A stretch of DNA of 64,000 bases, from the NCBI GenBank assembly GCA_023249375.1, contig JAHFCT010000003.1, positions 85,979 to 149,978 of the forward strand. The letters are read 5' to 3'. The notes under the pieces are model-generated. The model did no database searches and had not been told where the DNA came from. It saw nothing but the letters and a program-made list of their open reading frames with translations. This DNA comes from Gemmatimonadota bacterium (lineage in GTDB: Bacteria > Gemmatimonadota > Gemmatimonadetes > Gemmatimonadales > Gemmatimonadaceae). Positions 1,999-63,163 of the stretch are shown here, one piece after another. Both the position numbers and the translations under genes were made by a program. The stretch's first letter is position 1; each line of letters begins with the position of its first letter.

Positions 1999-2010
1999 AC
2001 GCAGCTGGTC

Positions 2011-2163
2011 GATGGTAGATGATGGATGGATGGTAGATGGTAGACTCGCGGCGGCCATCGGTTGAGATTTCCCTGAGGGGATCGCTCCGTGTCGGTCGTC
2101 GGCCGCCTACCGTCGGCTCTCTGTTTTCTGCCATCTGCCATCTACCATCTCCCCTCTGCCCTC
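2011..2163. repeat. Heptamer repeat locus H1 (two-armed)
   Basis: The left arm at 2011-2045 is made of GATGGTA/GATG units. The right arm at 2127-2161 is five in-register heptamers (TCTGCCA, TCTGCCA, TCTACCA, TCTCCCC, TCTGCCC). The arms are roughly reverse complements about 80 bp apart, so they could pair. The right arm ends two bases before the ATG of the OsmC-like gene. No hairpin with a T-tract was seen between the arms. Related units occur near 10.5, 22.0, 52.4, 59.2, 59.9 and 62.2 kb. Confidence 0.85.
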
Positions 2164-4828: not shown

Positions 4829-4969
4829 ACTGACTACCACGGATGAATCGGATGGGCACGGATTAACACGGATCACGCAACAAAGAAGAAGGGGACCCCG
4901 ATGTCGGGTCCCCTTTCTCTTGTTTGATCCGTGCCATCCGTCAAATCCGTGTCATCCGTGGTAGGCAGT
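4829..4969. repeat. ATCCGTG-type palindromic element A
   Basis: The element has a left arm of CACGGAT units (4834-4875), a central hairpin, and a right arm of ATCCGTG units spaced about 9 bp (4926-4963). Its ends are imperfect inverted copies: ACTGACTACCACGGAT on the left and ATCCGTGGTAGGCAGT on the right. It lies between two convergent genes (M1 peptidase and MoaB-type). No open frame lies inside it. Two more copies lie near 15.9 and 30.0 kb. Confidence 0.9.
4887..4920. terminator. Bidirectional terminator hairpin inside element A
   Basis: The stem GGGGACCC (4891-4898) pairs with GGGTCCCC (4906-4913) around a 7-base loop. A-rich sequence precedes it and TTTCTCTTGTTT follows, so it can terminate in both directions. 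It serves the convergent genes ending at 4794 and 4996. Confidence 0.85.
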
Positions 4970-10484: not shown

Positions 10485-10547
10485 GACGGATCGCCATGAC
10501 CGAGCGCGATGGTCCGTCGACCGGCCGCTTCCGACGTTCGTCCGCTC

Positions 10548-10568
10548 TCTTCCGTCTGCCGTCTGCAG
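10548..10568. repeat. Heptamer repeat locus H2 (single arm)
   Basis: Three in-register heptamers (TCTTCCG, TCTGCCG, TCTGCAG) lie between the fadJ stop and the M14 peptidase start. They match the pyrimidine-rich right arm of the family. No opposite arm was seen. Confidence 0.6.
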
Positions 10569-10570
10569 TC

Positions 10571-12721
10571 TCATACCGGTTTCCCCGTGGTCGGATAGAA
10601 CGTGCCGTTCTTGTTCGCCATCTCGCGCAACAGTCCCGCCGGCTCAAACCGCCCCGGGAAGCGCGCGTTCAACGCCTCGAGGCGCGCGACGAGCGCCGCC
10701 GCGCCAATTGTGTCCACCACCCGCAGCGGCCCGCCCCGGAACGGCGGAAAGCCAATGCCGAACACCGCGCCGATGTCGCCGTCACGCGGCGCGCGGAGGA
10801 TCCCCTCTTCCACGCAGCGCACGGCTTCGTTCACCATCGCCAGCGACAGGCGCTCCTGGATTTCGGCGGCACTCATCTCTATACGCGACGAACCGGCGGG
10901 CGTTGCCGCATACACCGACTCGTCCACGCCGCCCTTCTTGCCGCGTTCGTCGTAGAGATAGAAACCCTTCTTTCCCTTGCGGCCAAGCCGCCCGGTTGCA
11001 ATCACCTTGCCCAGCGTCGCCGATGGCTGCAGCCGGTCGCCGAACGCCGAGGCCATGATCGCGCCGCTCTTGCCGGCCACGTCGAGCCCGACTTCATCGA
11101 GCAGCGTCACCGGGCCCACCGGGAACCCGTAGTCGAGCATCGCCTTGTCGATGGCCTCGATGCGCACGCCGTCATCAAGCAGCTTGCCGGCCTCGTTGAT
11201 GTACGGCGCGAGAATGCGGTTCACGTAGAAACCGGGCGCGTCGTTCACGACGATCACCGTCTTGCCCAGCTTCCGTCCGAACGCCACCGTCGTCGCGATG
11301 ACGCCAGGCGCCGTCCGCGGCGTGACGATCACCTCGAGCAGCGGCATCTTGTGCACGGGCGAGAAGAAATGCATGCCCACCACCCGCGAGGGGTCACGCG
11401 ACGCTTCGGCCACGCGGTGAATCGGGATGGTGCTCGTGTTCGTGGCAAAAATCGCCCCCGGCGGCAGCACCGACTCCGCGTCCCTGACCACCGCGTGCTT
11501 GACCGCGAGGTCCTCAAAGACGGCCTCAATTAGTAGCGGAACGTTACTAAATCCGGTGTAGTCCACCGTGCCGCTCACGAGCGACAGCTGGTCCTCGAAC
11601 TGGTGCCGCGTGATCTGCTTCTTGGTGAGGCGGTCCTTCAGCACGTCGCGCACCGCGCCGAGTCCCTTGGCCACGGCCGCGTGCTTGGTGTCCTTGAAGC
11701 GCACCGGCACGCCCTGCATCGCGCTCACCGCGGCAATGCCCGCACCCATAAACCCGGTGCCGAGCACGCCGATCTTGCCAACGGGCGCCGGCGGCGGCGC
11801 GTCGCCGCTGACACCGAGGTCCTTCTTGAGCGACGTCGTGGCGTAGAACAGGAAGATCAGTTGCTTGCTGACCGCCGTGAACGCCATCTCGCCGAAGAGC
11901 CGCGCCTCGGTGGCAAAGCCGTCGGCCACCGTGCCGTGATAGCCGGCCGCCACGGCGTCGAGCGCGGCGAGCAGCGCGGGATAATGGCCGCGCGACTTCT
12001 TCATCGTCATCTCGCGCGCCTGCCGAAACACCACCGCGCGTCCCACTGGATTGTTCTCGAGTAGCGCACCCTTGGCGCCCGTCGAGTGCGCCCGCTTGCG
12101 CGCGATCTTTCCGGCGCCGAGGTCCTTGGCGCGGGCAATCGCCACGTCGCGCAGGATGTTCGGGTGCACCATCTCGTCGACGAGTCCGGTCTGCAGCGCC
12201 TTCTTGGCGCGCACGTTCTTGCCGGTGAGAATCATGTCGAGCGCCACCTGCAGCCCCACGGTGCGCGGCAGGCGCTGGGTGCCGCCTGCTCCGGGAATCA
12301 GGCCAAGCTGCACTTCGGGCAGCGCGAGCACCGTCTTGGGCGAATCACCGACAATGCGATACGCGCAGGCCAGTGACGCCTCGAGCCCGCCGCCCAGACA
12401 GGCGCCGTTGATCGCCGCCACCCACGGCACGCGCCCTTCTTCCAGCCGACTCATCAGCGTGTGTCCGGCCGCGCTCTCCCGTGTGGCGTCAGCCGCCGAC
12501 GTGAACTCGAGAAACTGATCGATGTCGGCGCCGGCGATGAACGTGTCGCTCTTGCCGCTGATCAGCACCGCGCCCTTCACCGATGCATCGCGCTCGATCT
12601 GATCGAACGCCGTGACAAACTCGGCGATCACCGCCTTCGAGAACTTGTTGACCGGCTCGCCCGGCAAGTCGAACGTGACGACGGCCACGCCATCGTGCAC
12701 CACGACGGAAAGTGCGCTCAT
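10571..12721 (-). CDS. fadJ: Fatty-acid oxidation multifunctional protein FadJ-like (enoyl-CoA hydratase / 3-hydroxyacyl-CoA dehydrogenase)
   Basis: The 716-residue protein has two enzymes in series. Residues 1 to about 190 are a crotonase domain (FIAGADIDQF oxyanion-hole region, NGACLGGGLEASLACAYRI, LGLIPGAGGTQRLPR), which hydrates enoyl-CoA. From about residue 315 a Rossmann NAD site (GVLGTGFMGAGIA) begins the 3-hydroxyacyl-CoA dehydrogenase, with GMHFFSPVHKMPLLEVI and NDAPGFYVNRILAPY. It catalyses the second and third steps of beta-oxidation. It sits 54 bp downstream of the thiolase gene, giving the usual fadI-fadJ pair. Confidence 0.95.
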   Translation of the reverse strand: MSALSVVVHDGVAVVTFDLPGEPVNKFSKAVIAEFVTAFDQIERDASVKGAVLISGKSDTFIAGADIDQFLEFTSAADATRESAAGHTLMSRLEEGRVPWVAAINGACLGGGLEASLACAYRIVGDSPKTVLALPEVQLGLIPGAGGTQRLPRTVGLQVALDMILTGKNVRAKKALQTGLVDEMVHPNILRDVAIARAKDLGAGKIARKRAHSTGAKGALLENNPVGRAVVFRQAREMTMKKSRGHYPALLAALDAVAAGYHGTVADGFATEARLFGEMAFTAVSKQLIFLFYATTSLKKDLGVSGDAPPPAPVGKIGVLGTGFMGAGIAAVSAMQGVPVRFKDTKHAAVAKGLGAVRDVLKDRLTKKQITRHQFEDQLSLVSGTVDYTGFSNVPLLIEAVFEDLAVKHAVVRDAESVLPPGAIFATNTSTIPIHRVAEASRDPSRVVGMHFFSPVHKMPLLEVIVTPRTAPGVIATTVAFGRKLGKTVIVVNDAPGFYVNRILAPYINEAGKLLDDGVRIEAIDKAMLDYGFPVGPVTLLDEVGLDVAGKSGAIMASAFGDRLQPSATLGKVIATGRLGRKGKKGFYLYDERGKKGGVDESVYAATPAGSSRIEMSAAEIQERLSLAMVNEAVRCVEEGILRAPRDGDIGAVFGIGFPPFRGGPLRVVDTIGAAALVARLEALNARFPGRFEPAGLLREMANKNGTFYPTTGKPV

Positions 12722-15873: not shown

Positions 15874-15990
15874 CTACCACGGATGACACGGATCAAGCAC
15901 AAGAAAAGGGGGGCCAGCTGAGCGGGCCCCCGATTTTCGTTTGCAGTATCCGTGTCATCCGTCCAATCCGTGTCATCCGTGGAAGTCCGT
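15874..15990. repeat. ATCCGTG-type palindromic element B
   Basis: The left arm (CTACCACGGATGACACGGAT, 15874-15893) and the right arm (ATCCGTG units, 15948-15982) are inverted with respect to each other and flank a G+C-rich hairpin. The element sits between the convergent glpD and greA genes, as element A sits between its convergent pair. Confidence 0.88.
15903..15942. terminator. Bidirectional terminator hairpin inside element B
   Basis: GGGGGCC (15909-15915) pairs with GGCCCCC (15925-15931). AAGAAAA precedes it and GATTTTCGTTT follows, so it has a T-tract on either strand. It lies between the stops of glpD and greA. Confidence 0.8.
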
Positions 15991-20528: not shown

Positions 20529-21818
20529 CTACTGAAGGCCGAGCTCCAGCAGTTCGTCGAGATGCTTGGCGATCGCCACTTGTCGCGCGCGCATGCGGCT
20601 CAGCCGGCGGCGATGCAGGTGCCGCACGAAGAATCGCCGCACCGCGAGCCATCGGAGCCGGCGGCGTTCCGCCACCATCGCGGCGCCAATCGCCGCCATC
20701 GGCAGCAAGAGAAGCGCAGCGAGCGCCGCGATCCATCCGCCGAGGAACCCGGCAATCGCGCTCGCGAGCAGCGTCCAGATCGTGCCGAACAGCGCGATGC
20801 CGAGCGTACGATACGTCGATTCGGAGTCGGGGCCCTCGCCGTTGTGCCGTCCCGCCCAGATGGCGGCCTGCACGGGCGGCCAGTACGCCAGCAGGGCGAG
20901 CGATGCGAGTGGAATTGCCGTGATGAGCGGGAGGCGCATCAGGAGCCAGCGCGCAGCGGCCGGCCAACTGACGTTCTGCTTGAGTGTCTGCGGCGTGAGG
21001 CCCATGCGCTGCAGCATCCTCGCGTGCGCGCGCAGCTCGCGCGCGGTGGCCTGCCACTCGGCGTCGCCGCGTGATCGGAACCGCTGGAAGACGCTGGCGG
21101 TCATCGCGAGGCGCGACACCGTCGATTCGGAGTCGCGCGGCGAGCCGTGCTCGGCGGCCCAGATCTGTTCGGCGATGTGGACGATGGCGGCGTCCTCGCC
21201 CGAGTCGAGATTGAGCGTGACTCGTCGCATGGCTTCGTCGATGCGCTTGGTGAGTTCTCGCACCGCAAACTTTTCGTCACTGCGCGCGGCCAAGTCGCTC
21301 CAGTCGAACGCGTCGCCCACCACCACGCGCGCTTCGCTGCGAAAGCTGTTGCGGTCGCGATACACCAGTCCGACGGCCATGATGGGAAAGTCGCGGCCGA
21401 TGCGCCGTGCGGCGCCGAGTGCAATGCGCGCCGCGCCCGTCTTGATGGGAGACAGTCGCGAGCCCGAGTGGCTGGTGCCCTCGGGGAAGATGCCAACCGC
21501 GGCACCCCTGGCGAGCGCGCCGTGCACATCAATGAAGATGTCGCGGTTCTGCCCGACGAGGCGCGGATCATCCTGGATGCGATAAACCGGAATGGAGCCG
21601 ACGGCGCGCACCAGCCATCCGATGTATGGATGCGCGATCAGTGGCGCCTTGGCGAGGAAGCGCACTTCGCGTTCGGCGGCGACGGTGACGAACGCCGGAT
21701 CCATCAGCCCGTTGTTGTGGTTGGCCACCAGCAGCACCGGCCCCTCGGCGGGGACGCGCATGCCGCCTACCGAGAACCGGTAGTAGGCGCGTGTCGCGAC
21801 GCGCGAAATGAGGGGCAT
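20529..21818 (-). CDS. PlsC-like 1-acylglycerol-phosphate acyltransferase with C-terminal membrane segments
   Basis: The 429-residue product has the glycerolipid acyltransferase motifs NHNNGLMD (NHX4D, about residues 32-39) and FPEGTSHSGSRL, with VGSIPVYR between them. The enzyme transfers an acyl chain to lysophosphatidic acid or a related acceptor. The last 130 residues contain two or three hydrophobic segments, giving membrane attachment not found in minimal PlsC. The frame is open to 21962, but that part is repeat DNA, so the ATG at 21818 is preferred. Confidence 0.88.
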   Translation of the reverse strand: MPLISRVATRAYYRFSVGGMRVPAEGPVLLVANHNNGLMDPAFVTVAAEREVRFLAKAPLIAHPYIGWLVRAVGSIPVYRIQDDPRLVGQNRDIFIDVHGALARGAAVGIFPEGTSHSGSRLSPIKTGAARIALGAARRIGRDFPIMAVGLVYRDRNSFRSEARVVVGDAFDWSDLAARSDEKFAVRELTKRIDEAMRRVTLNLDSGEDAAIVHIAEQIWAAEHGSPRDSESTVSRLAMTASVFQRFRSRGDAEWQATARELRAHARMLQRMGLTPQTLKQNVSWPAAARWLLMRLPLITAIPLASLALLAYWPPVQAAIWAGRHNGEGPDSESTYRTLGIALFGTIWTLLASAIAGFLGGWIAALAALLLLPMAAIGAAMVAERRRLRWLAVRRFFVRHLHRRRLSRMRARQVAIAKHLDELLELGLQ

Positions 21819-21842
21819 GAGGCCGGAAACTGCCAAGGCGCT

Positions 21843-22120
21843 AGACGGTAGATGGGAGATGGCAGATGGTAGAGACGACGATGGACGATAGGAGGGGGTC
21901 GCGGTGGCTGGAAGCCCCCGCGGCGTTCTGCGAAGGTGAATGTAGAGACTCGCGCCCGACACCTTTCGCGGATGATCTGCACCGATCCTGTAGTGCTACC
22001 ATCTGCCATCTACCATCTGCCATCTACCATCTGCCCTCTACCATCTGCCCTCTACCATCTGGCGCGTCCCGTCTGCCTTCCCCCATCTACCCTCCACCAG
22101 CTGCCTTCTACCATCTTTCC
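21843..22120. repeat. Heptamer repeat locus H3 (largest, two-armed)
   Basis: The left arm (21843-21877) is five heptamers of the AGATGGT type. The right arm starts at 21997 with nine uninterrupted heptamers alternating TACCATC and TGCC(A/C)TC (to 22059), then decays through further units to about 22120. The alternation makes a 14-bp higher-order unit. The locus fills the 305-bp gap between the divergent plsC-like gene and the small gene upstream of queG, so promoters for both must lie in or around it. Confidence 0.92.
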
Positions 22121-22123
22121 CCC

Positions 22124-22372
22124 GTGCCTTGGCTCCGCCTCCTGATCGCGCTCAAACTACGCGCCCTCGTGAATCCCGCGGTGGCGGCTGATCTGCTGCG
22201 CGTCGCGTGGCGGTATCGCCGGCGGCGGTGGTGGGCGCGTGCACCGTTTCTTCCGCTGCCCGATCGAGCGTACCTGCGGTGGCGGATGTACACGGCGTAC
22301 GGAAGCGAGGACGCCATTCCACCGGTCGCCGACGTGCTTCGCTACGCGCGCTGGACGCGGCATCACCCGTGA
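22124..22372 (+). CDS. Small basic protein of unknown function upstream of queG
   Basis: I do not recognise a family. The 82-residue product is Arg- and Trp-rich, with a central RVAWRYRRRRWWARAPFLPLPD segment and a conserved-looking end (YTAYGSEDAIPPVADVLRYARWTRHHP). It starts at a GTG immediately after the repeat tract. Its TGA overlaps the queG GTG as GTGA, which supports it as a translated gene coupled to queG. No signal peptide is seen. Confidence 0.68.
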   Translation: MPWLRLLIALKLRALVNPAVAADLLRVAWRYRRRRWWARAPFLPLPDRAYLRWRMYTAYGSEDAIPPVADVLRYARWTRHHP

Positions 22373-29947: not shown

Positions 29948-30065
29948 ACTGCTCACCACGGATTGAACGGATGGACACGGATGCACACGGAACTGCTTTC
30001 AAGGGGTTCCCCCAACGTCCGATCCGTGTTGATCCGTTCGATCCGTGTCATCCGTGGTAGTCAGT
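29948..30065. repeat. ATCCGTG-type palindromic element C
   Basis: The left arm runs from ACTGCTCACCACGGAT through CACGGAT units to about 29992. The right arm has four ATCCGTG units (30021-30057) and ends in ATCCGTGGTAGTCAGT, the exact reverse complement of the left end of element A. The centre has only GGGGTTCCCC, a poor hairpin with no T-tract. Unlike A and B it lies in a divergent gap (29769-30209), between the Ada/AlkA promoter and the sigma-factor gene. Nothing else is recognised in that 441-bp gap. Confidence 0.88.
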
Positions 30066-41773: not shown

Positions 41774-43564
41774 ATGCACTCCGAGAACGACGAACTCCGC
41801 CTCACCGCCCTGGAGCGTCGCCTCGCCCGCATCGAGGCTACGCTCCAGCTAGCGACGCCGCCCATGCCCACGTCCGCGGAACCGGCATCCACGGAACCGG
41901 CGTCCGCGGAACCGGCATCCACGGAACCGGCATTCGCACCACCTGCGCCTCGTGCATCTGCGCCGGCAGACGCTGCGGCGCGGCAGCCGGCGCCAGCTCC
42001 GCTCATCCGCCCACCGTCGCCGCCACCCGCGAGGCGCTCGTTCGGTGCCGCGACCTCAGCGGTCTCCGATCGCGCCGACGCCCGGTTCATCGGCAGCATC
42101 CTCGGCTGGGGCGGCGCACTCGCACTCGTACTCGCCGCGTCGTACCTCATTCGGCTCGCCATCGACAGCGGCTGGCTGACGCCGGTGCGCCAGGTCGCGT
42201 TCGCGGCGATCTTCGGCGTCTTGCTCGTCGCGGCCGGCTTCGCCATGCGCACCATCAACCGCCAGTACGCCGGGCTGCTCCCTGCCGCGGGCGTCGCCGT
42301 GCTCTTCCTCGCGATCTACGGCGGGCACCTCTATCACGAGATCATTGGGGCACGTCAGGCGGGCGTCGCGGTGCTGCTCGTCTGCGCCGCGTCGCTGTGG
42401 CTCTGCCGGGCCTTCAGCAGCGACATGTACGCGCTCTTTGCCGTCGCCGGTTCCTACTCGGCGCCGCTGCTGCTGCGCACCGAAAGCGGTTCCATCACCG
42501 ACCTCGCCATCTACTTCACGGCGTGGAGCGTGGTCTTCGCGATCTTTGCCGTGTGGCATGGACGCCGCCTCATCTATCTGCTGGCCGCGTATCTCGCCTT
42601 TGTCGCCTTTGACGTCGCGTGGAGGCAAACCGGCTCGGGCCATTGGATTGCCGTACTCGTCTTCCAGTCTGCGCAGTTCCTCATCTTTGGCCTCGCCACC
42701 GTGATGTTCTCGGTGCGCCGGCAGTCGCCGCTCGACGCACCGTCCGCCGTGCCGCACTTGCCGCCACTGCTGCTGTTCTATTTCCTGCAGTACACGCTGC
42801 TCAAGCAGCACCTGCCGGAGTTTGCGCCGTGGATTGCGGTGCTCAGCCTGGTGCTCGTGGCGCTCCTCTTTCTTTTCGCCCGCGGCCGTGAAGGCCAGGC
42901 GCTGCCGGGCGGCGAGCTGCTGTTGTCCAGCTATTCCGCGCTCGTGCTCTTTCACGCCGGCTACGTGGAGAGCGTCCCGCATGATTGGGCACCGTGGTTT
43001 GTCGTCTTCGCGGTGCCGCTTCTCATCTATGCCGGCCTGCGCGCGGTGGACTCACCAACGGCGCGCATTCCCGTGTGGATCGTCGCCGGCATCATCGCAC
43101 TCGAGAACTACTTCCGCGTCACGTTCGAAACGGAAGTGCGCGCGGTCCCCGCGCATCAGCTGCTTCCCGTCGCCTATGCGCTGCTGCTGTATGGCGGCTA
43201 TTGGTTTGCACGGCGCGAGCGCGCGCTGAATCAGGCGCGGCCGGTGATGCTGTACATGGGCCACCTTAGCGCGATGGCCGCCGCCTTGCAGTTGCTCACC
43301 GAGCCCATCCTCCAGTCCGCCGCGTGGGGCGTGCTCGCCGTCGCTTGCCTCATGCTCTCGCTGCGCATGACCGACAAGATGCTCGGGCAGTCATCGCTCG
43401 CCGTGTTCGGCATGGCGGCGTTCAAGGTGTTGCTCGTGGACCTGAAGGGGGCGTCGCCCGTAGCGCGCATCGTCGGCCTGGTGGTCCTCGGCATCGCCCT
43501 CTATGCCGGCGGCCTGCTGTATCAGCGCCTGCTGGGGGCAGTCGCCCAGGATTCCCAGTCGTAA
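41774..43564 (+). CDS. DUF2339-family multi-spanning membrane protein
   Basis: The 596-residue protein has a short N-terminal helix, a Pro/Ala/Ser/Glu-rich linker with a PASTE/PASAE repeat (about residues 35-55), then roughly 15 or more membrane segments from residue 105 on (IGSILGWGGALALVLAASYLIRLAI...). This is the layout of DUF2339 predicted membrane proteins, whose function is not known. It is transcribed divergently from arsR, next to its operator, so arsenic control of this gene is possible but unproven. Confidence 0.88.
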   Translation: MHSENDELRLTALERRLARIEATLQLATPPMPTSAEPASTEPASAEPASTEPAFAPPAPRASAPADAAARQPAPAPLIRPPSPPPARRSFGAATSAVSDRADARFIGSILGWGGALALVLAASYLIRLAIDSGWLTPVRQVAFAAIFGVLLVAAGFAMRTINRQYAGLLPAAGVAVLFLAIYGGHLYHEIIGARQAGVAVLLVCAASLWLCRAFSSDMYALFAVAGSYSAPLLLRTESGSITDLAIYFTAWSVVFAIFAVWHGRRLIYLLAAYLAFVAFDVAWRQTGSGHWIAVLVFQSAQFLIFGLATVMFSVRRQSPLDAPSAVPHLPPLLLFYFLQYTLLKQHLPEFAPWIAVLSLVLVALLFLFARGREGQALPGGELLLSSYSALVLFHAGYVESVPHDWAPWFVVFAVPLLIYAGLRAVDSPTARIPVWIVAGIIALENYFRVTFETEVRAVPAHQLLPVAYALLLYGGYWFARRERALNQARPVMLYMGHLSAMAAALQLLTEPILQSAAWGVLAVACLMLSLRMTDKMLGQSSLAVFGMAAFKVLLVDLKGASPVARIVGLVVLGIALYAGGLLYQRLLGAVAQDSQS

Positions 43565-52397: not shown

Positions 52398-52411
52398 CGG
52401 TTGTCTCATCT

Positions 52412-52432
52412 TCTGCCGTCTGCGGTCTGTCG
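52412..52432. repeat. Heptamer repeat locus H4 (single, degenerate arm)
   Basis: Three in-register heptamers (TCTGCCG, TCTGCGG, TCTGTCG) lie in the convergent gap between the glycosidase-like gene and the PDZ gene. The match is partial and the opposite arm is not seen. Confidence 0.5.
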
Positions 52433-52476
52433 TCGGTTGTCGGTAATCGGCTTCTGTTGCCGCTTGCTGCGCCAGC

Positions 52477-59132: not shown

Positions 59133-59190
59133 GCAAGATCGCTAGATTTCACCATTGATCGTCCGCGGTCCGCCGTTTGTCCTTCTTTCG

Positions 59191-59218
59191 TCTGCCTTCT
59201 ACCGTCTCCCGTCTACCA
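59191..59218. repeat. Heptamer repeat locus H5 (single arm)
   Basis: Four in-register heptamers (TCTGCCT, TCTACCG, TCTCCCG, TCTACCA) lie directly upstream of the probable start of the isoprenylcysteine-methyltransferase-like gene. They extend the open frame without adding protein-like sequence. Confidence 0.75.
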
Positions 59219-59226
59219 CCACCGTC

Positions 59227-59844
59227 TTGACCGAAATCTCAGCATCGGAAACCTCTACTCCCGCCCGCATTGGCGCGGTGATTTTCCGCAACCGCGGCTG
59301 GCTGCCGGTGCCGTTTCTCGCCGTGCCGCTGCTCGCGCCGGGAGGTATCACGCGCCTCGGCGTCATCATCGGCGCCGTCCTGATCGTGATCGGCGAAGCG
59401 TGGCGGCTGTGGGGCGTAGCCACCGCCGGCACCGTGACGCGCCGCCGCTCGCGCAACGTGCAGAAGCTCGTCACGCACGGACCGTTTGCACTCAGCCGCA
59501 ATCCGCTCTACAACGGCAACTACCTGCTCTGGATGGGCTTCGTCGCGCTCAGCGGCGTTTGGTGGTTCCTTCCCGTCGCCACCGTCCTCTTCGCTCTCGA
59601 GTACTACTTCATCGTGCGCTACGAAGAGGGCGTGCTGGAGTCGATCTTCGCGGACGACTACCTGGCGTTCAAGCACCGCACGCCCCGCTGGATTCCCCTC
59701 GGTGCCTCAGGTTCCGTCGCCGGCGAGTTCTTCTGGGCCGAAGCGTGGAAGAGCGAGATCAGCACGTTCATGCAGTATGCGGCGCTGCTGGTGGTCTTTG
59801 TCGCGAAGGACAGGTACTTCCCGAACGGGCTGGTTGGTCGATGA
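59227..59844 (+). CDS. Isoprenylcysteine carboxyl methyltransferase-like membrane protein
   Basis: The product is 205 residues from the TTG at 59227; the frame upstream is repeat DNA. It has four or so membrane segments and the family's SAM-binding text KLVTHGPFALSRNPLYNGNYLLWMG (about residues 80-104) and EEGVLESIFADDYLAFKHRTPRWIP. In bacteria the family methylates small lipophilic or protein substrates at the membrane; the substrate here is unknown. A GTG at 59278 is another possible start. Confidence 0.85.
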   Translation: MTEISASETSTPARIGAVIFRNRGWLPVPFLAVPLLAPGGITRLGVIIGAVLIVIGEAWRLWGVATAGTVTRRRSRNVQKLVTHGPFALSRNPLYNGNYLLWMGFVALSGVWWFLPVATVLFALEYYFIVRYEEGVLESIFADDYLAFKHRTPRWIPLGASGSVAGEFFWAEAWKSEISTFMQYAALLVVFVAKDRYFPNGLVGR

Positions 59845-59852
59845 TAGCTGGG

Positions 59853-59963
59853 AGAAGGCAGAAGGTAGATGGTAGAGGGTAGAGGGTCGAACGAGACAGA
59901 GCCCGGCAGATCTCCGCCGGGCTCTTCTTCTACCCTCTACCATCTGGCCTCGACCATCTATCT
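59853..59963. repeat. Heptamer repeat locus H6 (two-armed with terminator)
   Basis: The left arm is five heptamers (59853-59887: AGAAGGC, AGAAGGT, AGATGGT, AGAGGGT, AGAGGGT). The right arm is about five (59929-59963: TCTACCC, TCTACCA, TCTGGCC, TCGACCA, TCTATCT). A hairpin sits between them, and the locus lies between convergent genes. The last right-arm unit supplies the TAG stop codon of the ferredoxin gene. Confidence 0.9.
59898..59930. terminator. Terminator hairpin inside repeat locus H6
   Basis: AGAGCCCGGC (59898-59907) pairs perfectly with GCCGGGCTCT (59916-59925) around an 8-base loop. The pyrimidine tract TCTTC follows on the plus strand. It serves the convergent methyltransferase-like and ferredoxin genes. 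Confidence 0.85.
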
Positions 59964-60353: not shown

Positions 60354-60890
60354 ATGCAACTGACCGTCAACGGCACCCCCCGCGACGTCGATCCGTCGCG
60401 CTCCCCCACGCTGCTCGCCGCGCTCCGCGACCAGCTCGGGCTGACCGGCGCCAAGCTGGGATGCGACCATGGCGAATGCGGTGCGTGCACCGTGCGTCTC
60501 GACGGCGACCTGGTTTACGCCTGCCTTACGCTGACTGCCGCGGTCGAGGGCGCCCAGGTGCAAACCGTCGAGGGACTCGCCGATGGCACCACGCTCCATC
60601 CGGTGCAACAGGCCTTCATCGCCCACGACGCCGCGCAATGCGGCTACTGCACGCCCGGCCAGCTCCTCGCCGCCACCGCGCTCCTCGAGAAGAACCCGCA
60701 CCCGACCGACGACGAGATTCGCGCCGCGATGAGCGGCAACCTCTGCCGCTGCGGCACCTACCCAAAGATCATCACCGCCATTCGCGCGATCAGTGACGGT
60801 GCGGCCGCTGGTGGCGCGGCAGCAGGCGGCGCGGCAGCTGGTGGCGCAGCAGCGGGCGGCGCGGCCCTATCGGCGGGAGGCGCATCGTGA
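60354..60890 (+). CDS. Molybdenum hydroxylase small subunit, two [2Fe-2S] clusters (CoxS/XdhC-type)
   Basis: The 178-residue protein has the plant-type 2Fe-2S motif GCDHGECGACTVRLDGDLVYAC (about residues 38-59) and the second cluster's CGYCTPGQ and CRCGTY. It relays electrons from the molybdopterin site of the large subunit. After residue 148 there is a low-complexity AAAGG repeat tail not found in typical members. It is coupled to the large subunit by a GTGA overlap. No FAD-binding middle subunit is present nearby. Confidence 0.93.
   Translation: MQLTVNGTPRDVDPSRSPTLLAALRDQLGLTGAKLGCDHGECGACTVRLDGDLVYACLTLTAAVEGAQVQTVEGLADGTTLHPVQQAFIAHDAAQCGYCTPGQLLAATALLEKNPHPTDDEIRAAMSGNLCRCGTYPKIITAIRAISDGAAAGGAAAGGAAAGGAAAGGAALSAGGAS
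60801..60860 (+). repeat. 15-bp tandem repeat coding for AAAGG
   Basis: Four 15-bp units of the type GCGGCAGCAGGCGGC encode repeated Ala-Ala-Ala-Gly-Gly at the end of the small-subunit gene. The unit is a multiple of three. Confidence 0.85.
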
Positions 60891-63163
60891 CGGACAAGCG
60901 CGCCCGCTTCGTGCAGACGACGGTCGAAGTCGAAGGACGCACGGAAACGCGCGTCGTCGAAGTGCCTGCCTTCGAGCCGGCTCCGTGGACTGCCGACACC
61001 CCGCTGTCGATCGTCGGCACGAGTCCACTGCGCGTCGATGCTCACGAAAAAGTCACCGGCCGCGCCCGCTACACCGCGGATATCGTGCGTCCCGGGATGT
61101 TGCACGCCATCATCGTGCGCGCCCCGATCGCCAAGGGCGCCATCACGAGCATCACGCTCGACGGCGCGCGCGCCATGCCCGGCGTGCGCGGCGTAATGGG
61201 CCCGGGTGATGCGCCGCCGACCACGCGATTGTTCCGCCGCGAGGTCTCCTACTTCGGACAACCGCTCGCCGCGGTCTGCGCCGAAACGCTTGAGCAAGCG
61301 GAACGCGCCGCCGCCGTCCTCGCCGCTTCGCTCGCGTTCGACGTCGCGCCGCACGCCGTCACCGTCGACGACGCCATCGCCGCCGATGCCCCGCGCGTTC
61401 GCAGCGCCGGCAACACCACCGCGCCCGATGTCGTCGAGCGTGGCGATGTGGCGCGCGGCCTTTCCGACGCCGAAGTCACCATCACGCGCGAATACCGCAC
61501 GCCGGTCGCACTGCACTCGGCCCTCGAGCCGCACGGCGCCGTCTGCGAGTGGAACGACGATCACCTCACGATTTGGGAATCCACGCAAGGCATCTTCCGC
61601 GTCCGCAAAGACGTGTCGCAGGCGCTCGGCGTGCCGCAGGCAAAAGTACGCGTGCTCAAGGACTACATGGGCGGCGGGTTCGGCGCCAAGAACGGCGCGG
61701 GGGCGCACACCTACACGGCTGCCCTGTTCGCACGCACACTCGGCGCTCCCGTGCGCTGCGTCAACAGTCGCCGCGCCGAACAGACCGACAGCGGCAATCG
61801 TCCCGCCACCGTGCAGAAGGTCACCATCGCCGCGCGGCGCGATGGGTCGCTCACCGCACTCGTGCTTGACGCCCTCATACCGCTCGGCATCAGCGGCTGG
61901 GAAGGCGGCCCCGCGCAGATCTTCCACGAGATGTACGCGTGCCCCAACGTCCGCACCACCGAGACGTGTGTCTACATCAACGCCAGCGGCATGCAGGCGT
62001 TTCGCGGCCCCGGGTACGTGGAAGGCGCGTTCGCCCTTGAGGGCGCGATGAACGCACTGGCCCGCGCGTTGCAGATGGATCCTGTCGCGCTGCGTCTCAG
62101 GAACCTCGCCACGCGCGACCAGCGCGCCAACCGCGAGTTCAGCGGCAATCGTCTCGATGAATGTTACGCCGAGGGGATGAAGCGCTTCGGCTGGCCCTCT
62201 ACCATCCACCCTCTACCCTCTGCCCTCAGCCGCGTGAAACGCGGCGTCGGCGTGGCCGCACAGACGTGGCCCACCGGCGGCGGTCCGCCGTCGTACGCCC
62301 ACGTCCGCATCAACAGCGACGGCTCGGTTGACGTGCTCGCCGGCACGCAGGACCTCGGCACCGGCGCACGCACCATCTTCGCGCAGATCGCCGCCGAAGC
62401 GCTCGGCGCGTCGCTTGGCACGGTGCGCACCGTCATCGGCGACACCGAGCGATTGCCCTACACCGGCAATTCGTGGGGTTCGATGACCACGCCGAGCGTG
62501 GGCCCCGCGGTGCGCATGGCGGCTGAGGAGGCCAAAACGCATCTCCTTGAAGCCGCCGCACAGATGCTCGATGTACCCGTTGAAACACTCACCACGCGTG
62601 ACTCGCAGGTGCTTTCGTCAGGCGTGGTGCAGATCTCGTTCGTCGAACTCTGCAAGCGACTCGGCAATGTGCAGATCCTCGGCCGCGGCTCGCGGGGCCC
62701 AAATCCCGAACTCGCCATTGTCACCGTGGGAGCGCAGTTCGCCGAGGTCGAAGTCGACTCCGAGACGGGCGTCGTGCGCGTGCTGCGCATCGTCGCCGTG
62801 CATGACGGCGGGCGCATCATCAATCCGGCGCTCGCCGAGAGCCAGTTGCACGGCGGCATCATCCAGGGCATCGGCTACGCGCTGTTTGAAGAGCGGCACA
62901 TTGATCGCGAGCGCGGCGTGACGCTCAACGCCAACCTGCACGACTACAAAGTGCCGACCATGGCCGACATTCCCGCCATCGACGCGTCGTTCCTCGTTGG
63001 CGCCGATCCCGCCGCCAATCACATTGGCGCACGCGGCATCGCTGAGCCGCCGATCATTCCCACCGCGCCCGCCATCGCCGCGGCCGTCGCCAACGCGCTT
63101 GGCGTCGAAGTCTGCGCGATTCCACTGACGCCGTGGCGCGTGCTTGGGGCAATCGCCGGATGA
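60887..63163 (+). CDS. Molybdenum hydroxylase large subunit (xanthine dehydrogenase/aldehyde oxidoreductase family)
   Basis: The 758-residue molybdopterin-binding subunit has [12 protein letters not shown] at the start and [21 protein letters not shown] for cofactor contact. It also has [34 protein letters not shown] and the C-terminal [16 protein letters not shown] region with the catalytic glutamate. It hydroxylates an aldehyde or N-heterocycle with water as oxygen donor; the substrate is unknown. Codons at 62198-62232 come from heptamer repeat H7 ([11 protein letters not shown]), placed in a loop between KRFGW and VKRGVGVA. The next gene overlaps by ATGA. Confidence 0.94.
62198..62232. repeat. 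Heptamer repeat locus H7, inside a coding sequence
   Basis: Five in-register heptamers (TCTACCA, TCCACCC, TCTACCC, TCTGCCC, TCAGCCG) lie within the large-subunit gene and are translated. Only the pyrimidine-rich arm is present. Confidence 0.85.

Follow-up and report, generated by a model that had tools for sequence, protein, structure and literature searches.

The window, by which we mean the whole 64-kb stretch of DNA analysed here, comes from a 3.8-Mb, 120-contig draft genome of ~67% GC (G000). It holds ten arrays of tandem heptads when searched with a profile for TCTRCCN and a score of ≥14 is counted as an array, while dinucleotide shuffles, which served as the control, gave none. The initial annotation had listed seven loci with in-register 7-bp units in this window and proposed a dispersed family; all seven are present and the family stands out beyond chance, so that a lack of enrichment, one of the two refutations proposed there, is not borne out.

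Three of these loci are two-armed. At 22.0 kb a left arm on the minus strand (21836..21874; four to five heptads, reading TCTACCA/TCTGCCA/TCTCCCA/TCTACCG on that strand) lies directly 5′ of the start of an acyltransferase gene (20529-21818, minus strand), and a right arm on the plus strand (21996..22116; nine perfect alternating heptads, then degenerate units) lies immediately 5′ of a small gene on the same strand, near 22125. The nine uninterrupted units were correctly described from the outset: at 21997-22059 TACCATC alternates with TGCC(A/C)TC (TRF period 14, score 137), although the 14-bp dimer that they form is local to this site and not a general property of the family. Between the arms, in a divergent gap, is a core (21875..21995) that is partly kept among orthologues and probably holds divergent promoters; the arms enclose this core with a folding z of −3.50. 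At 2.0 kb the left arm (2001..2044, minus strand, of which 2001-2029 is the scored array) sits right behind the stop of a gene with a tRNA_bind domain (1666-1998), and the right arm (2091..2163, plus strand) terminates at the start codon of an OsmC-like gene (2164-2583). At 59.9 kb a left arm (59835..59890, minus strand) at the stop codon of gene 59278-59844 and a right arm (59927..59960, plus strand) surround a core (59891..59926) containing a terminator-like hairpin, GAGCCCGGC..GCCGGGCTC, that is kept in most congeners; here the arms fold around the hairpin into a long stem (z=−7.75).

The remaining arrays of the window are all on the plus strand. Single arms occur at 10539..10571, between two minus-strand genes and adjoining the stop of 10571-12703; at 52410..52434, where a weak arm lies between convergent genes; and at 59181..59218, shortly 5′ of a TTG start (about 59225). 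The last array (62194..62232) is coding: its four in-frame heptads lie in a variable loop of gene 60887-63163, which Pfam identifies as a molybdopterin-binding dehydrogenase of the xanthine dehydrogenase type.

In the genome as a whole we counted 49 exact matches to TCTRCCATCTRCCA and 399 three-unit matches at ≤3 mismatches. Their density is uneven, with ten arrays in the window versus two in ~286 kb of other stretches. Array statistics come from sampled stretches of draft assemblies, 20 of those from G000 having been picked for containing hits; a reversed-pattern control is invalid for TCTACCA, as the reversed string is a rotation of itself. The unit was given at first as TCTACCA/TCTGCCA and is corrected here to TCYRCCN, that is, TC[TC][AG]CCN on one strand and NGG[CT][AG]GA on the other. 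Array length peaks at 4–5 units, or ~30 nt, by a tolerant unit count.

Unit positions 1, 2, 5 and 6 are 94–99% fixed, a figure that the detection rule favours in part, and positions 3, 4 and 7 drift, position 4 being mostly a purine. Ribbon-helix-helix omega and MetJ repressors read tandem 7–8 bp boxes, and the fixed bases, the fixed unit number and the frequency of single arms would likewise suit DNA or RNA sites for a putative protein that reads heptads cooperatively, in chromosome organisation or regulation. Against such sites stand the hundreds of copies, which in the window lie beside genes of unrelated function, the lack of any candidate protein found and the species dialects described below, which would demand a protein that tolerates the changed bases; we consider this explanation quite unlikely.

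Arrays are abundant in all 11 genomes of the source genus. One congener, G007, shows 100% identity over 8 kb with Gemmatimonas sp. GL140_4_metabinner_26, and we therefore refer to the genus as a Gemmatimonas-type lineage. Elsewhere in the order, genus g42 is likewise rich in arrays (three of its four members), some members of g19 have a modest number, and other genera have few or none. Genus g42, which belongs to the same family, is a second lineage carrying the heptads: three of its genomes (G128, G193 and G235) have 51–103 exact three-unit matches each, such matches being absent from most of the family's remaining genera. Outside the order, comparable heptads turn up in scattered phyla, the breadth being at least that of the matches listed. 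Four IMG/VR contigs (L189, L191, L194 and L197) carry inward two-armed TCTRCCG heptads and may be prophage or host DNA.

Two-armed sites have a fixed order, with the G-strand arm on the left and the C-strand arm on the right at every such site in the G000 sample, just as initially described (left AGATGGT type, right TCTACCA type); genome-wide, however, most arrays are single and outnumber the two-armed sites. Orientation is non-random, random orientation having been set in advance as a possible refutation: samples of four congeners gave 35 ‘-+’ pairs of opposite-strand neighbours against three ‘+-’ pairs, and the latter lie between elements. Outside the genus, ‘-+’ accounts for 33 of the 34 opposite pairs among the matches listed (from other Gemmatimonadetes, Saprospiraceae, Balneolaceae, Niastella, Chitinophagales, Acidobacteria, Chloroflexi and some viral contigs), and the one exception is an array scored on both strands.

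Spacers between arms range from ~0 to 121 bp. The claim that the arms can pair holds for folding (the z values given above), but swapping the arms of different sites lowers pairing in only one of three genomes, G007 (p=0.001), and not in G000 or G003; strict compensatory pairing is thus supported in that one genome, and a strict hairpin is not clearly under selection. No cross matches were found between the cores of different sites when 8, 5 and 7 sites were compared.

Inverted pairs, fixed polarity and a variable spacer in intergenic DNA also recall mobile palindromes, either of the REPIN/BIME type with a RAYT or MITEs. REPIN/BIME elements are built on a palindromic REP, however, whereas this family consists of tandem heptads with no RAYT: the Y1_Tnp domain is absent from nine of the 11 genomes of the genus (G000 and eight other congeners), and we rejected a RAYT-driven origin. 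MITEs were rejected too, as copies share no homologous interior and the cores of different sites have nothing in common. Mobile palindromes of either kind are extremely improbable.

Three observations on individual loci may be recorded here. One array cluster (L046, 14822-15123, G000:C77) includes a ‘+ -’ neighbour pair, and a 38-nt identical flank common to two of its arrays suggests recent local duplication. At L049 (13872-17510, G000:C106) one long predicted reading frame contains three two-armed heptad elements; the gene is either wrongly called or has been interrupted by the elements. A 19-nt identity (CATACCGGTTTCCCCGTGG-like) recurs beside arrays at unrelated loci (window 10571-10590, L047 near 16136, and L269), perhaps as a recurring C-terminal ...GKPV* coding end.

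Gene context was assessed with our own codon-based caller, which called 91% of the DNA as coding and whose calls and starts are approximate. Although ~90% of the DNA is coding, 140 of 173 arrays (81%) are intergenic, distributed over tandem (88), convergent (31) and divergent (16) gaps; the 33 arrays in coding regions comprise 18 in sense and 15 in antisense orientation. Arrays mostly touch a gene end, frequently ≤10 nt from a stop or start codon, and a gap with one element at each side thereby acquires the two-armed, inward-facing layout. Where an array adjoins a single gene end, its C-rich strand runs into that gene in 57 cases and out of it in two (starts 19:0, stops 38:2), and the rule also holds in G003 and G007. 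These two genomes dispose of an origin of the polarity in start or stop codons on the G strand, because the G003 unit (TCTACCG) has no ATG on that strand and the G007 unit (TCTGCCA) no stop, and both obey the rule.

Such polarity, with G-rich RNA on exit from a gene and C-rich RNA on entry, favours a directional role at transcription borders. We tentatively propose that the arrays act as strand-asymmetric border elements. On its way out of a gene, at either end, RNA polymerase would produce G-rich (GGNNGAN)n RNA; this RNA could pause it, fold into a two-tier quadruplex, hybridise as an R-loop or base-pair with the arm opposite, while a polymerase entering the gene would make unstructured C-rich RNA. 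Read-through and antisense transcription would be dampened at gene borders, beside ordinary terminators such as the 59.9 kb hairpin. This mechanism, read from the polarity, is plausible but somewhat short of probable, and it makes a clear, testable prediction on transcription at gene borders. It has to contend with the copy in the xanthine dehydrogenase-type gene and the other coding copies (33/173), which are not gene borders and yet have the same frame and dialect.

The same polarity could reflect a guard operated by Rho, in which the C-rich strand is a putative rut site and an untranslated transcript entering a gene would be terminated. Known rut sites are C-rich and G-poor and use YC, and a rut model counts YC dimers spaced 9–13 nt (PMC9160355). 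In base composition the heptads fit in part, since the fixed bases amount to two YC dinucleotides per unit and the polarity gives exactly the C-rich RNA on entry; the heptad spacing, though, is 7 nt rather than 9–13, and several dialects, such as TCTGCCG, are not G-poor. Moreover, the heptads of Nostoc show the same polarity, although cyanobacteria are not known to possess Rho. A Rho guard seems improbable to us.

The STRR repeats of cyanobacteria are dispersed heptanucleotide repeats that probably differ in sequence from TC[TC][AG]CCN. An exact-string literature search for the present heptads returned nothing relevant, and a known structured RNA was rejected, with no match to any Rfam covariance model. 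The closest precedent is the description of GGGAATC and GGGGA(C/T)T heptads in Xanthomonas and Nostoc, which number hundreds per genome, prefer four units, are ~90% intergenic with tandem gaps ahead of convergent and convergent ahead of divergent, point the G-rich strand away from the nearest ORF (in Nostoc included) and are retained at 83% between two Xanthomonas; each Xanthomonas genome has ~70 pairs of GGGAATC heptads in convergent orientation, which have the potential to form a stem (Rehm et al., 2015; PMC4692102). The initial annotation erred, then, in taking the layout to differ from that of known heptads: convergent pairs and the same gene-edge polarity were on record (PMC4692102). The Gemmatimonas-type family shares with these heptads its number, its size of about four units, intergenic bias, the rarity of divergent gaps, polarity, convergent pairs and orthologous places. 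It differs in its unit (NGGYRGA rather than GGGNATC, with GG in place of GGG) and in phylum, and goes beyond them in the full turnover of dialect at fixed orthologous sites and within a coding gene. It is very likely the same kind of repeat, as a variant rather than a member of the GGGNATC family, because the unit differs and the potential for three-tier quadruplexes is lacking. The two-armed, gene-edge layout is already known; the unit, the lineage, the dialects and the in-gene rewriting are new.

A G-quadruplex function has been proposed for the Xanthomonas and Nostoc heptads (PMC4692102), and the shared four-unit preference and polarity would extend it to the present family (Rehm et al., 2015; PMC4692102). 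A two-tier motif is possible in 153 of 190 arrays, but a three-tier motif is present in only five of the 190, on which ground we rejected three-tier quadruplexes, and the conserved GA is left unexplained. Nor does a Rho-type or G-tract rule account for the purine bias at position 4. Quadruplex elements are, in our estimation, highly doubtful. Since this family reaches an equal size, an equivalent layout and a nearly absolute polarity with no GGG tracts, it speaks against quadruplexes as the common cause; those of three tiers cannot account in general for the preference for four units. Four-unit heptads bordering genes are on record from scattered bacteria, with no function assigned to them.

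Two further heptad families are related in kind. TAACTGA heptamers in Beggiatoaceae, cyanobacteria and Bacteroidetes lie just 5′ of start codons, some reversed near stops, and are mostly direct repeats, with a single indirect set in the main genome (MacGregor, 2015; PMC4679880). Both families are heptads at gene edges, but the units are unrelated, and we dropped the idea of a common grammar, since the two differ in strand near start codons. The portion of the Geobacter metallireducens report bearing on Gmet_H4 gives four tandem heptads of unit GGGACCG at 49 inter- and intragenic places, and describes no inverted pairs or dialects of the kind found here (PMC2700814).

Orthology and dialects were compared at five orthologous loci in draft assemblies. 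At 22.0 kb both arms surround the core in nine of ten genomes, G000 included, with a different flavour of unit in the orthologous right array; in G003 a gene has been inserted and the arms are absent. The single array at 59.2 kb is in the same place in six congeners (seven species), and both arms at 59.9 kb are present in six species and lost or reduced in others. At 2.0 kb there is an arm on either side of the gap, and G001 and G010 have arms on both sides of an extra gene. The array at 62.2 kb occupies the same 60-bp interval in ten of 11 species; in other genera this loop varies freely in length and sequence and has no heptads. Outgroup neighbourhoods contained no arrays.

While places persist, units do not. 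Scored as agreement at positions 3, 4 and 7 (maximum 3), units agree at 1.85 inside an array, 1.80 between the two arms of a site and 1.46 between loci of one species, but orthologous arrays of different species (1.12) agree hardly more than unrelated arrays (1.08). Same-species agreement overall is 1.51 versus 1.12 with species shuffled within loci (p=0.003); by locus, the signal is present at 22.0 kb (p=0.0003) and in the in-gene copy at 62.2 kb (p=0.011), is weaker at 59.2 and 59.9 kb (p=0.04–0.05), and is not significant at 2.0 kb alone. GC is similar in all congeners (0.66–0.69) and so cannot explain the dialects. The degenerate positions have turned over fully while sites persisted, which is concerted evolution into species dialects, and on these statistics some homogenising process probably acts on ~30-bp tracts, for which template switching or gene conversion would be candidates. 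Because the sites are orthologous throughout the genus and their units turn over together and in full, the family can serve as a natural experiment in the homogenisation of very short dispersed sequences in bacteria.

The main rival to a border function starts from the fact that in-gene copies obey the same rewriting. It holds that slippage, palindromic template switching or the filling of break repairs writes heptads selfishly or neutrally into tolerant DNA, that gene edges and variable loops are where the survivors are seen, and that the cell derives no function from them. The copies in a length-variable protein loop, dialect turnover inside that gene, the strongly patchy presence across the order and the array-free outgroup neighbourhoods all agree with this account. 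The 57:2 polarity, the 4–5 unit peak and the long-kept orthologous positions, on the other hand, are unexpected without selection or a directional process, and we regard it as possible but somewhat unlikely. Directional writing, by templated end-filling or by template switching from a master sequence, would rewrite hundreds of border sites and the in-gene copy into one dialect, laying the G-rich strand 5′-to-3′ away from the gene; we think this unlikely.

Our preferred reading is a family of gene-border elements that combines a strand-asymmetric role in transcription with rewriting between copies, and we give this whole explanation a probability of roughly 40%. Template switching or gene conversion would keep overwriting arrays with the sequence of others elsewhere in the genome, and one arm of a site with that of its partner. 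The degenerate positions would in this way come to spell a dialect proper to each species, and the TC..CC frame would stay unchanged along with the location and polarity of each array. All of the following are additions to the initial annotation: the element size of ~30 nt, the rule at gene edges, the conservation between orthologues, the dialects and the coding location of the 62.2 kb array.

The window also contains other repeats. Among them is another dispersed family, whose unit ATCCGTGNN is nine bases long and comes in runs of ~3–4 units (4922-4963, 15875-15984 and 29957-30059). It likewise forms inward pairs, with CACGGAT on the left and ATCCGTG on the right; exact two-unit matches number 30 in G000, 13 in G004 and eight in G005, and few if any were counted in the other congeners. 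Tandem repeats that are longer, with periods of 15/30 bases, and unrelated to the heptads lie at 41871-41933 and 60797-60866 (TCCACGGAACCGGCA; CGGCGCGGC...).
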